From a virus, in IMG/VR virus record IMGVR_UViG_3300031391_000023, positions 1-20,386 of that record: DNA of 20,386 bases; one strand, written 5' to 3'. The number at the start of each line of letters is the position of its first letter. Within the stretch, counting starts at the first letter, position 1. Under the pieces are notes generated by a model. That model saw only the letters and a program-made list of their open reading frames with translations. It was not told where the DNA came from and searched no databases. This document shows, piece by piece, positions 13,348 to 20,218 of this stretch. The position numbers and the translations under genes are program-made.

Positions 13348-14448
13348 TTATGAGATTGTTGCTCGGAGAACAGCTCCTCGTCCACGGTTGCCTTCGAATA
13401 CTTTGTATCCTCGGACAAGTAGTCCTTTACAGGTAGATACGAATGAGTTCGGGTCAGTCTCACTTGAGATGATAGAAACCTTCATAATCTGTGCTGCAAA
13501 AGCCATGAATTCCTTCGTACCAGCTAGGAAGAAGTAACCAGTTGTGTTGTTACCTGCTACTAGCTCTGAGAAGTAGATGTCAAAGTTTGCGAATCGGCCT
13601 ACAAACCCTTCCTTTACTACCTCTTCGTACGCTACGTCTACTGCTGGGATAAACTCTGGTGCTTGTCGCATGATACCTTCCATTGCTGAGTTAACAACTA
13701 GGAAACGTCGTTCCTTACGTGGTGTAAGTGATGCGTTTAGTACTGTACCGAGTTGTACCATGTACTGGTATACGTTGCTCTTAGTCAAAGCAACTGCTGT
13801 AGCTCCTGCGATTGTGTAAGAAGTACCACTTGATACTGCTCCACCTGTGTACTCACTTTCTGCTCCAACGTCTTTAATTGTGATTGAAGTTGCTGATGCG
13901 TACGCTGTAACGATTTGGTAAGTTGCTCCAGCGTCTGCTGTGAAGTAACCTCCTACCATTGCTGCGGTGAAAGTAGTTCCTGTACCTGTTACTGCTCCGG
14001 TAGTTGCTGCTACTGCTACTGATCCAGTTGAGTAATTTGTTCCAACTACGTTTGCTCCTGATGCGTTACGTCGTCCGTACTCTAGAAGTTCAGTGTCGAT
14101 AAGTTCTGACATGTCCATTCGTGCGTTTGATGCGTATTCTGACATTGTGTCTACATCGTTTTGTAGCTTGTCAATGTCGTCTACAACAAACTTGAAGTAG
14201 TCAGCTTGGTCGATAACTAGGTCTTCTGAGGTTGGGTTTAGGTCTTGTGCAACCAATGTCATTCCCTTTGTGTATGAAGAAAGACTGATTTTAGCTGCTG
14301 TACGAACTCGAACTCGGTCTCCCATGTTCTTGATTTCACCTTCGTACTTTGTGTTGGTGATGTTCTGGTAGATTGTCTCGTTGTAGAGAGTTTCTACTAG
14401 TTTAAGGCTAAATACTATTGGAGTATTAGCTGCTAATGATTGTGACAT
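13348..14448 (-). CDS. Major capsid protein with beta-domain insertion
   Basis: The 366-residue protein has the features of P22-type/HK97-fold coat proteins. These include an N-terminal arm (TPIVFSLKLVETLYNETIYQNI), RVRVRTAAKISLSSYTKG, the long helix DYFKFVVDDIDKLQND to TELLEYGRR (83-127), and a C-terminal ERRFLVVNSAMEGIM, GRFANFDIYFSE, FFLAGTKEFMAFA, KGLLVRGYKVFEG. The gene follows the scaffold directly, as expected. Residues about 140-218 (SVAVAATTGAVTGTGTTFTA to YTIAGATA) are small, Ala/Gly/Thr-rich beta sequence. They look like an inserted domain, which would probably project from the capsid surface. Many such subunits form the icosahedral shell. A short palindrome lies just before the ATG. 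Confidence 0.9.
   Translation of the reverse strand: MSQSLAANTPIVFSLKLVETLYNETIYQNITNTKYEGEIKNMGDRVRVRTAAKISLSSYTKGMTLVAQDLNPTSEDLVIDQADYFKFVVDDIDKLQNDVDTMSEYASNARMDMSELIDTELLEYGRRNASGANVVGTNYSTGSVAVAATTGAVTGTGTTFTAAMVGGYFTADAGATYQIVTAYASATSITIKDVGAESEYTGGAVSSGTSYTIAGATAVALTKSNVYQYMVQLGTVLNASLTPRKERRFLVVNSAMEGIMRQAPEFIPAVDVAYEEVVKEGFVGRFANFDIYFSELVAGNNTTGYFFLAGTKEFMAFAAQIMKVSIISSETDPNSFVSTCKGLLVRGYKVFEGNRGRGAVLRATIS
13795..14031 (-). other. Inserted beta-sandwich-like domain of the coat protein
   Basis: Residues 140-218 of the coat protein carry alternating hydrophobic beta pattern with GTGTTFTAAMVGGYFTADAG and SATSITIKD. This pattern is common in small surface or fibre domains of phages. 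The helical coat core resumes on both sides. The boundaries are estimated from the pattern. Confidence 0.55.
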
Positions 14449-17593: not shown

Positions 17594-18865
17594 TTAAATG
17601 CCGAACTCCTGAATGAGACCACCGGCTTGAGCTTGCATAGTTGACCTGTTCAGGCGTAGTGGTTGGCTTGGTAGCTCCCAGACTGATAAGGCTGTTCCCA
17701 TAACTGTGTCGTCATGAAGATGGTCTGGGGCTTTTACCTTTAACTTAGTACCGACTAGCTCGTATTGGAAGTATGATAGTTCCTTTTTAAGTACCTCATC
17801 GTCCAATAAAGCCACCTTACGCTGGTCTAGTTTGATTGATAGGTTGTTTAGTATGTCTTTACGACTCTGCTCAGTGAACTTGAATGGTTCTAGCATGATA
17901 CCTCTTTGGTTCAAGTCTTCTACTACAGGGTCTCCCACTCCAGTTGCGTCAATAAAACCAGCAGGTCGATTAAACTTATGATAGATAGCTTCTATCTTGG
18001 ACTTCTGAATGTTCCAGTCCATGTGATTGAAGCGTTCCAGGAAGACTTGTTCGTGCGTGTGTGCGTCTATGATTGAAATCACGGTAAAGTCTTGGTACTT
18101 GGCAAGGTCTACTCCCATGCGATAAAAGCGCAGTGGGTTCGCTTCCACTGGCTGGGTAATACATACATCGTTAATGTTCTTAAAGAAGTTAGTAGCGTTA
18201 GCAATGAACTTGCAGTAGTACTCCTGCTGAATCATGTCCTCCGGCATACCCTCTTGACGTTCTCTTTCGATGTCTTCCTCGGTTAATACGCCTGTATCAG
18301 TGATAGTTAGTACCTCTGTGAACCACTCTGGGTTGTTTCTAGCCATCTCATACAGCTCATAGGCGTGGTTTTGACCACGTGGAGTACCATTAAAGATAGC
18401 CCAGCCCTTGTTTACTAAAAGAATAGGGCGTATAAAACTCCATATATCAGCTCTAGTAATAGGGTACTCACTGAATACTACGCCAATCGGGTTCGTACCG
18501 ACTCCACTCTTATCAAAAGTATCGGCTCCGATCAGTTGAATGATTGAACCATTGACTAGCGTAACCTTCAAAGTAGACTCGTTTGTCTTAGCGATTATCT
18601 CTTTTGGAATATGGTCAAGCATGCGGAATCCGTCTATGTCTATGTTGTCCCAGATAACCTTACGGGCCTGTGTGTACTCTGGTAAGAAGTAGAAGTATGT
18701 GCCAACTCTCCCTAATGCTCGCTTTACCAAGTAGTTGAAACAGGTTTTATCTTTACCCGCTCGTCTATGGTGGATTATAAAGGCACGAAGGATACCGTTA
18801 TCCATCGCTTTATACAGTGGTAGCTGGTAGTTACGTGGCTGGAACTTATGTGGGACTGTCACCAT
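17594..18865 (-). CDS. terL: Terminase large subunit (ATPase and nuclease)
   Basis: The 423-residue protein drives DNA packaging and cuts the concatemer. The ATPase half has a Walker A variant HRRAGKDK (33-40), a Walker B PIGVVFSE ending in E133, and a coupling motif FNGTPRG (158-164). The nuclease half, RNase H-like, carries acidic residues D253 (GVDLAKYQDF), D306 (FIDATGVGDP) and D385/D386 (LHDDTVMG). Length and motif order are those of a complete TerL. The start overlaps the TerS gene by 20 bases. The gene lies directly upstream of the portal gene, as usual. Confidence 0.95.
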   Translation of the reverse strand: MVTVPHKFQPRNYQLPLYKAMDNGILRAFIIHHRRAGKDKTCFNYLVKRALGRVGTYFYFLPEYTQARKVIWDNIDIDGFRMLDHIPKEIIAKTNESTLKVTLVNGSIIQLIGADTFDKSGVGTNPIGVVFSEYPITRADIWSFIRPILLVNKGWAIFNGTPRGQNHAYELYEMARNNPEWFTEVLTITDTGVLTEEDIERERQEGMPEDMIQQEYYCKFIANATNFFKNINDVCITQPVEANPLRFYRMGVDLAKYQDFTVISIIDAHTHEQVFLERFNHMDWNIQKSKIEAIYHKFNRPAGFIDATGVGDPVVEDLNQRGIMLEPFKFTEQSRKDILNNLSIKLDQRKVALLDDEVLKKELSYFQYELVGTKLKVKAPDHLHDDTVMGTALSVWELPSQPLRLNRSTMQAQAGGLIQEFGI

Positions 18866-19214
18866 AGTTAATTACATTGATGTTTACCCCTGCTCGTTCG
18901 GTTTCCTTTCCGCTTAATAGCTGTACGTTCTTAGTTAGAGTATCTAGTGAGCGTACTAAGTCAGTGTGACGTTCGTTGTCTAGGTCTTTGGTGGATATTT
19001 CCATTAGAATTCTATTCCGTTCGGCTTCTAGCTTCTCTAAAAAAGGCATCACAACTGATTGATATGATTTAGTGCCCGTCACCTCTTGGGGGTTGCCTGA
19101 TGTGTTATCAGAATAGCCAACTTCCCTTAATATCTTTCCCATGTTCACCTTTTTGCCTGTTCCTAGGCTTTCCACAACTTTCGTGGCAGCTCTCTTAGCG
19201 TTTTCACTAGCCAT
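18846..19214 (-). CDS. terS: Terminase small subunit
   Basis: The 122-residue protein has an N-terminal helix-turn-helix-like region (KKVNMGKILREVGYSDNTSGNPQEVTGTKSYQ, about 21-52). A helical oligomerisation part follows (FLEKLEAERNRILMEIS, LVRSLDTLTKNVQLL), then a short tail. This arrangement is typical of small terminases that recognise viral DNA and stimulate TerL. It overlaps the HAD gene by 8 bases and TerL by 20 bases, which suggests coupled translation. The assignment rests on motif pattern and neighbourhood. Confidence 0.8.
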   Translation of the reverse strand: MASENAKRAATKVVESLGTGKKVNMGKILREVGYSDNTSGNPQEVTGTKSYQSVVMPFLEKLEAERNRILMEISTKDLDNERHTDLVRSLDTLTKNVQLLSGKETERAGVNINVINYGDSPT

Positions 19215-19578
19215 ATATAATAGTATTTACATCATCCCAGTTGCTGAATCTGATTGCTTTGTCGTCTATGTAGTAATCAGCATTGGGCTTTATGTTAGTA
19301 ATTGTATCATATGTCAAGCCGTAGTAGTCCATGAACTCAGCTATGTGTTCTGGTTGTCCTCCTCGAACTGAGTGAACGATGACGGCATAGCCAGCTTCTC
19401 GGTATCTTTTGAGACTCTCTTTTGCTCCTGGTAGTGGCTGTCCCATTCTCCTATTGGGTAATGGGTTCTTATAGTCGTGTATTACTCCGTCAAAATCTAT
19501 CGCTAGTACCTTTTTAGCTGCCTGGGTTGGGGCTTTTCTAGTATCTAGGACGGCTCGCTTGCTTTTAGGTATCTTCAT
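19207..19578 (-). CDS. HAD-superfamily phosphatase
   Basis: The 123-residue protein has the HAD motifs in order: motif I IDFDG with D28 and D30, motif II with S70 (VIVHSVRG), motif III K97 and motif IV YIDD (D105/D106). D28 would be the nucleophile and D30 the general acid. No cap domain is visible, so large substrates such as nucleic-acid ends or phosphoproteins could reach the site. Phages often carry such small HAD enzymes as DNA 3'-phosphatases or nucleotidases. The true substrate cannot be read from sequence. Its ATG overlaps the previous stop as TAATG. Confidence 0.85.
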   Translation of the reverse strand: MKIPKSKRAVLDTRKAPTQAAKKVLAIDFDGVIHDYKNPLPNRRMGQPLPGAKESLKRYREAGYAVIVHSVRGGQPEHIAEFMDYYGLTYDTITNIKPNADYYIDDKAIRFSNWDDVNTIIYG

Positions 19579-19925
19579 TACTTCTTATTACGGGTCTTGG
19601 AGACTCTTTTTCCCTTCTTGGGCTTGGTTTCTACTCCGTAGCTCTCTAGTGTGTGGGCTAGTGTGCCTGATTCTTTGGAAATCTTTAGCTTCTTCAGTGT
19701 TAGGGCTTCGATAATTAGTGATTGGATGCAATTCTTTAGAGCTTCGTTGTTATTTAAAGCGGTGGTGAAGTTAATTTCCTCTAACTCTGGCTCTGGCTTA
19801 AGTGTCGCTGGATTAGCTACTGTCTTACCAGTATCAATTACTAGGGTTCCCAGTACTGCTGCGATATTAAAAGCGTCTTTTGTGCTTACATCTTGTACCG
19901 TTAGTTTAAGTGATTTTACTTGCAT
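19578..19925 (-). CDS. First gene of the late operon, unknown function
   Basis: The 115-residue product has a mixed N-terminal part (MQVKSLKLTVQDVSTKDAFNIAAVLGTL), a helical middle (NNNEALKNCIQSLIIEALTLKKLK) and a basic tail (KPKKGKRVSKTRNKK). The tail suggests nucleic-acid contact. I recognise no family. It is the first gene of the block that includes HAD, TerS and TerL. Its extended -10 box lies 7 bases before the ATG, so the message is likely leaderless. It may assist packaging, but only its position says so. Confidence 0.7.
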   Translation of the reverse strand: MQVKSLKLTVQDVSTKDAFNIAAVLGTLVIDTGKTVANPATLKPEPELEEINFTTALNNNEALKNCIQSLIIEALTLKKLKISKESGTLAHTLESYGVETKPKKGKRVSKTRNKK

Positions 19926-19941: not shown

Positions 19942-19951
19942 CGTTATATTG

Positions 19952-20071
19952 TCCCCTATAGACGAATCGAACGTCTGCGTTGTAGTGAGTCGGTGTATTG
20001 GTATGATTCAATACAGATAGACAGAAAAGATAAATAAGAAACATCTCACTACTAGGTGCTTACCATAAGGG
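19952..20071 (-). ncRNA. tRNA-like structured leader RNA
   Basis: On the minus strand a 7-bp acceptor-like stem joins CCCTTAT (20065-20071) and ATAGGGG (19953-19959), followed by A at 19952. A perfect T-arm, AGACG-TTCGATT-CGTCT (19960-19976), abuts the acceptor with no gap. A 5-base variable loop (AACGC) comes before an 8-bp stem GTAGTGAG/CTCACTAC (20045-20052 with 19982-19989). That arm contains another hairpin, GTATTG/CAATAC. The D-arm is only GGT-AAGC-ACC. At 120 bases it is too long for a normal tRNA and I see no anticodon. It may be a tRNA mimic or leader RNA. Only pairing is seen; expression is not. Confidence 0.45.
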
Positions 20072-20109
20072 GGATGCTGGCGGAGACTTTAAGAGTTACC
20101 AGCCCTTAT
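20065..20109 (-). repeat. Alternative leader hairpin starting at the predicted transcript start
   Basis: ATAAGGG (20103-20109) pairs perfectly with CCCTTAT (20065-20071), with CTGG/CCAG stacked inside next to a 5-base bulge. CCCTTAT can also pair with ATAGGGG of the tRNA-like acceptor, so the two folds exclude each other. Confidence 0.45.
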
Positions 20110-20139
20110 ATTATACCTTATCGGGTGGGGTGTTGTCTA
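20110..20139 (-). promoter_or_regulatory. Late-operon promoter with -35 and -10
   Basis: TAGACA (20134-20139), an 18-base spacer and TATAAT (20110-20115) form a near-consensus sigma70 promoter reading left. Transcription would start near 20103, just before the structured leader. It is the only promoter here with a visible -35 box. Confidence 0.55.
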
Positions 20140-20218
20140 GGACTGATAAGTAATCACGTAACGTATTCCTGAAACGCTTGAATGCTATCCACTGTCTAGT
20201 TCCACCATCAGGTTCCAA
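20111..20218 (-). CDS. Tentative 35-residue basic peptide with TTG start
   Basis: The frame reads TTG then EPDGGTRQWIAFKRFRNT and on to LDNTPPDKV, ending in TAA inside the -10 box at 20110. No ATG is present. It overlaps the end of the hydrophobic ORF by 11 bases in the +1 frame. The pattern is protein-like (amphipathic, basic, no bias), so it could be the second part of one small membrane protein split by a frameshift. It may also be chance. Confidence 0.3.
   Translation of the reverse strand: MEPDGGTRQWIAFKRFRNTLRDYLSVLDNTPPDKV

Follow-up and report, generated by a model that had tools for sequence, protein, structure and literature searches.

A covarying tRNA-like RNA domain behind a conserved promoter-like island at the head of phage packaging operons

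Introduction

RNAs of viruses and phages that mimic tRNAs are a known kind. The tRNA-like structures at the 3' ends of plant viruses copy the acceptor and T-arm of tRNA to use host enzymes, and bacterial Y RNAs (YrlA) are non-tRNA RNAs that carry a tRNA-like module. To our knowledge, few phage RNAs mimic tRNAs, and none that we know of occupies a constant place at the start of the packaging operon in phages whose terminases are unrelated. The M3 RNA belongs to phage phi80 and the C4 antisense RNA to P1/P7. The put elements of phage HK022 lack the tRNA order of helices. In tRNA itself, acceptor and T-stem stack to 12 bp; RNase P, RNase Z and the enzymes that modify tRNA recognise this stack, the T-loop and the GG. 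For cleavage by RNase P RNA, a minihelix made up only of acceptor, T-stem and T-loop is enough, and M3 and C4 are non-tRNA substrates of RNase P (PMC11143913).

Here, we analysed a 20,386-nt fragment of a viral contig (IMG/VR record IMGVR_UViG_3300031391_000023; the window), for which a tRNA-like, possibly bistable leader RNA had been proposed ahead of the packaging operon from an inspection of the letters (the original prediction).

Results

Nearly all genes of the window lie on the minus strand and make up a packaging and structural operon. Its first packaging gene (19578-19925, minus strand) encodes a 115-aa protein without a family match and is followed by the gene for a HAD-like protein, a probable TerS gene assigned by position, and the gene for TerL (17594-18865, minus strand); the major head protein is encoded at 13348-14448 on the same strand. 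The gene for the HAD-like or polynucleotide-kinase-like small protein (19207-19578) separates the leader from the terminase genes, and such a protein is encoded beside terminase genes in some other contigs too. Positions 3-2162 encode the C-terminal part of a structural protein, made of repeated NTANGLNALYSNTSGS-like units.

The element lies upstream of the first packaging gene, and its tRNA-like domain as a whole, the conserved unit, spans 19950-20073 (minus strand) as delimited by a covariance model and homology spans. It is preceded by a 5' domain, directly after the probable start site, with the hairpin GCTGG...CCAGC (20076-20103) in the window; this domain varies among relatives in sequence and in length, from about 34 to 170 nt. 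In the tRNA-like domain, CCCTTAT (20065-20071) and ATAGGGG (19953-19959) form an acceptor-like stem of 7 bp including one G-U, next to a discriminator-like A (19952) without CCA. A minimal D-like hairpin, GGTAAGCACC (20055-20064; GGT/ACC), carries a GG resembling G18-G19. The anticodon-like arm is stretched to 71 nt (19982-20052), closed by the 8 bp GTAGTGAG/CTCACTAC, and contains an inner hairpin, TGTATTG/CAATACA (20015-20009 with 20000-19994). The variable loop AACGC of 5 nt (19981-19977) leads to a perfect 5-bp/7-nt T-arm, AGACG-TTCGATT-CGTCT (19960-19976). The acceptor-like stem, T-arm, 5-base variable loop and 8-bp arm of the original prediction are all present in tRNA order on the minus strand, as are its minimal D-arm (20064-20055) and anticodon arm of about 71 bases (20052-19982).

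This tRNA-like fold is the minimum-energy fold of the window sequence. The original prediction had counted on an energy below that of shuffled sequence, which holds weakly for the window (z -1.97, 8/200; in a repeat z -1.85, 11/200), so energy is not the proof and the relatives decide; their domains reach z-scores of -2.6 to -3.3 against shuffles.

It had also been proposed that ATAAGGG (20109-20103) pairs with CCCTTAT in place of the acceptor stem, giving two exclusive folds. The perfect 7-bp alternative pairing does exist in the window, but it is lost or shortened in every other member, where the site reads AGAAGGG, AGAAGAGC, ACAAGAG, ACAACAG, ACAAGGA or AGAGCC. Moreover, ATAA stands 1-4 nt after the -10 box and is therefore probably not transcribed. 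Since the pairing is confined to the window and its first four bases probably lie 5' of the start, a bistable switch is hardly credible.

Relatives were found by a TerL search and then by scans of viral contigs with a promoter pattern and a P2/T-loop pattern. We found at least eight clearly different relatives of the element in other viral contigs; the pattern scans recovered L168, L170, L171, L172, L174/L175 and L177-L181. L002, which came from the TerL search, is 90% identical with the leader over their overlap, with a wholly different T-stem around the same loop. Among ten window-like copies, the T-stem shows two-sided changes in all five pairs and is paired in 50 of 50 cells, around an invariant TTCGATT loop; this alignment was fitted to a covariance model and so leans towards structure, the T-stem, however, being fixed by its loop. 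Among the relatives, the loop start TTCGA stays invariant while the T-stem sequence changes completely. Over six representatives, among them the highly divergent L171, L174 and L003, two-sided changes occur in 17 of the 20 core pairs, and 97.5% of the cells are paired as against 62% when shuffled (0/500 shuffles came near), with the acceptor and long arm biased upwards because the cores were excised by hand from minimum-energy folds. The closing stem of the long arm covaries in L171, L174 and L003. The compensatory changes for which the original prediction had looked to related genomes are thus found, including at every T-stem pair.

A covariance model made from window-like copies only, with no tRNAs, matched L174/L175 independently (E 1.7e-4), and its next-best match (E 0.0068) overlaps a genuine tRNA gene in L166. 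In a one-step search, the model gave no match for L003 and an E of only 1.4 for L171; both were included because they have the promoter and the position in common with the other members and form such folds of their own. The leaders of the window, L174 and L171 had no blastn match among 50,697 phage records.

The stack of acceptor and T-stem measures 12 bp in the window, L168, L172, L174 and L171, 11 bp in L170 and L177, and 11-12 bp in L003. The split between the stems shifts at constant stack, from 7+5 in the window to 6+6 in L171, and looks like 5+7 in L002, whose 5' part is missing. GG followed by TA/TAA in the D region is also present in L171, L174 and L003. Members differ in detail, with a bulge or mismatch in the acceptor of some (L178, L179), a G-U in window-like ones and a T-loop of 6 nt in L003; CCA is not conserved in the 3' flanks of the relatives. 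Tandem CTATTTT repeats occupy the long-arm loop of L174 (L174:268-300). Taken with the covariation, we regard the tRNA-like structure of the element as almost certainly real.

The T-arm and the 3' strand of the acceptor resemble phage attachment cores that duplicate the end of a host tRNA gene, an origin that had been suggested for this site. The results do not support it. Among 84,980 genomes (species representatives only), none contains the 24-nt T-arm/acceptor block exactly; the element has both acceptor strands, which co-vary, and with them more than the 3' end of a tRNA; among relatives, the T-stem covaries, and L002 and L003 lack the G53-C61 pair, which is near-universal in tRNAs. In addition, no integrase was recognised among the neighbouring ORFs. 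An attachment core is therefore very improbable.

The genes downstream of the element belong to at least five unrelated packaging modules (window/L003; L168/L172/L174; L170/L177/L181; L178/L180; L171), with L179 perhaps a sixth, so the element is not tied to one terminase. Homology between pairs of contigs often sets in near -121 (5' strand of the acceptor) and breaks off between about +5 and +19, relative to the 3' end of the domain, and the promoter stands out as a separate conserved island in these comparisons. L174/L175 and L168/L172 share all downstream sequence and have different tRNA-like domains, with the junction near the T-loop. Selection acting on the fold as a unit would place the edges of homology there, at the 5' acceptor strand and shortly behind the 3' strand; the pattern is consistent with a folded unit that is under selection at a mosaic junction. 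A cos or pac role is unlikely, because the RNA is common to phages with different TerS/TerL and the changes in the T-stem preserve pairing, not sequence.

At normal thresholds, ARAGORN called neither a tRNA nor a tmRNA in the element, and Rfam at gathering and permissive thresholds gave no relevant family match, whether to RF00005, to RF00023 or to bacterial Y RNA (YrlA). ARAGORN was also run in intron mode (introns of 30-80 nt allowed, 85% threshold) with dinucleotide shuffles as controls. It then called exactly the tRNA-like domain in five of six leaders, as against 2 of 900 shuffles, and at a 90% threshold in three of six, as against 0 of 900. Each call reports another anticodon (ccg, cct, acc, tac, cca, gat). 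Compared with a functional tRNA, the window has the 7-bp acceptor and the 5-bp/7-nt T-arm with TTCRA, from which some relatives deviate; in place of a 5-bp anticodon stem with a 7-nt loop and a consistent anticodon, it has the 71-nt arm. The geometry of an RNase P substrate is present, namely the acceptor/T-stem stack of 11-12 bp, the T-loop and a 5' leader.

These fits, with an intron of 48-57 nt in five members, and the tRNA genes upstream of related terminases in several loci would suit a decayed or intron-bearing phage tRNA gene. However, the anticodon changes from call to call, CCA is absent, normal thresholds fail and the long arm covaries as one helix; covarying stems mean that the domain is not decaying. 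This origin is quite improbable, and the element is not a working tRNA. With its long hairpin for an anticodon arm, its differing anticodons and its lack of CCA, it imitates the acceptor-elbow half of tRNA rather than the half that decodes. A mini-tmRNA with a tag reading frame was considered and rejected, as the ATG in the arm loop of the window reads ATA in relatives.

Other tRNA-like RNAs were seen near terminases. ARAGORN calls tRNAs with anticodon-arm insertions of 30-110 nt at full threshold in L164:2822-2962, L068:2523-2728 and L030:1902-2020, all on the sense strand upstream of terminase genes, and the one in L164 has a nested second T-arm-like hairpin. The tRNA-like RNA of L064:732-842, with a 7-bp acceptor, a perfect T-arm, an encoded CCA and an abnormal middle, lies shortly upstream of an ATG in an operon, before TerS/TerL. 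A structured RNA in L018:667-835, which precedes an operon containing TerL, has an 8-bp acceptor-like stem, a hairpin resembling a D-arm and, within the T-loop, what looks like an insertion of about 80 nt. The unrelated RNAs of L064, L068, L164 and L018 may be further examples of a class. In a phage contig, the Rfam search also detected a tmRNA gene (L051:2795-3149; RF00023, E 1.7e-19), flanked by TerL and the next large gene.

The conserved island behind which the element lies is a strong sigma70-like promoter (20109-20140, minus strand) that agrees with 11 of 12 consensus positions. Its -35 box is TAGACA (20139-20134), its 18-nt spacer contains ACCCCACC, and its -10 box is TATAAT (20115-20110). 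The island is kept in L168, L170, L171, L172, L174 and L003, and in L179 with one change; the -10 region of the relative L177 differs. A search of genomes with the promoter pattern gave a sole match, a chance one in Pantoea (L176). The spacer (ACCCCACC..AAGG) is conserved to the same degree as the boxes, which suggests that a regulator is bound there, and the promoter and parts of the upstream region are common to phages with different late genes. Together with the place of the element directly behind a promoter and at the head of a long operon, this would suit a cis-acting element controlling transcription or translation, such as an RNA antiterminator in the style of HK022 put or a site bound by a late regulator of the phage, with the tRNA-like fold merely a scaffold. 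Yet T-loop, GG and acceptor in the order of a tRNA are not required for a put-like element, the domain adjacent to the promoter is the variable part, and a search of the leader region found no minus-strand terminator. We consider such control possible, though doubtful.

We found no recognisable Shine-Dalgarno site at any start among the minus-strand genes of the window or in L010:1-3500; several genes have ACACCCT or CACCCCCC directly 5' of the ATG, and others a TATAAT-like box close upstream. This suggests a host with non-SD initiation and may be of use in identifying it. A -10-like TACAAT/TATAAT (GGTACAAT) stands about 6-20 nt 5' of the first ATG in the window, L003, L170, L174 and L179. Such boxes could yield separate, nearly leaderless mRNAs, so that the element may not be a leader. 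Both observations favour a free-standing small RNA that mimics tRNA in trans, for example as a decoy for a host tRNA enzyme or a tRNA-targeting defence, while the packaging genes use their own -10 boxes. No terminator was found at the 3' end of the element, which counts against this reading, and we regard it as unlikely.

Discussion

The reading that we prefer is that the element is a leader or small RNA that mimics tRNA and is most likely recognised by RNase P and RNase Z (probability roughly 0.35 to 0.4). It would be the 5' leader of the packaging or late operon, or a small RNA from the same promoter, in which a variable hairpin domain on the 5' side precedes a tRNA-like domain of about 120 nt on the 3' side. 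The latter would retain the grip points for tRNA-handling enzymes, namely the stack of 11-12 bp, the TTCGA T-loop and the D-like GG. Since these conserved parts are recognition features of tRNA enzymes, host tRNA-maturation enzymes most likely bind and probably cut the domain. The cut by RNase P would fall at the acceptor's 5' side, near 20071, and a second one, made by RNase Z or a different nuclease, would follow the discriminator (19952). Cutting would detach the 5' domain, free a small tRNA-like RNA that would otherwise stay joined to the packaging mRNA, or do both. The option, raised by the original prediction, of a tRNA mimic ahead of the packaging operon that recruits tRNA-processing factors is strongly supported in its structure, and the recruitment is what we infer from the retained features.

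Within Rfam, phage records and the open literature, the family, its location and its spread over unrelated packaging modules appear new. Tentatively, it may represent a new class of phage RNAs, tRNA mimics that head unrelated packaging operons and pass the late transcript on to the tRNA-maturation enzymes of the host or set free a tRNA decoy. If confirmed, phages would use host tRNA maturation to shape their late transcripts, or as a target to block. The analysis supplies a covariance model for the element, and simple cleavage assays can test the reading.

Like the element, tmRNA (RF00023) has an acceptor and T-arm, a weak D region and a long helix replacing the anticodon arm, whereas the element has no mRNA-like part or conserved tag frame, measures about 120 as against about 350 nt and has both halves local. 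The tRNA-like module is shared with bacterial Y RNAs (YrlA), and the element has no Rfam match. The plant-virus structures are pseudoknotted 3' ends of RNA genomes, while the element is located towards the 5' end of what is predicted to be a phage transcript. The put leaders of HK022 are, like the element, structured RNAs just behind a phage promoter. The M3 RNA of phi80 and the C4 antisense RNA of P1/P7 are non-tRNA phage RNAs processed by the tRNA 5'-maturation enzyme (PMC11143913), as is proposed for the element. Likened here by description, M3 and C4 are small RNAs of temperate enterobacterial phages, whereas the element heads the packaging operons of uncultivated phages.
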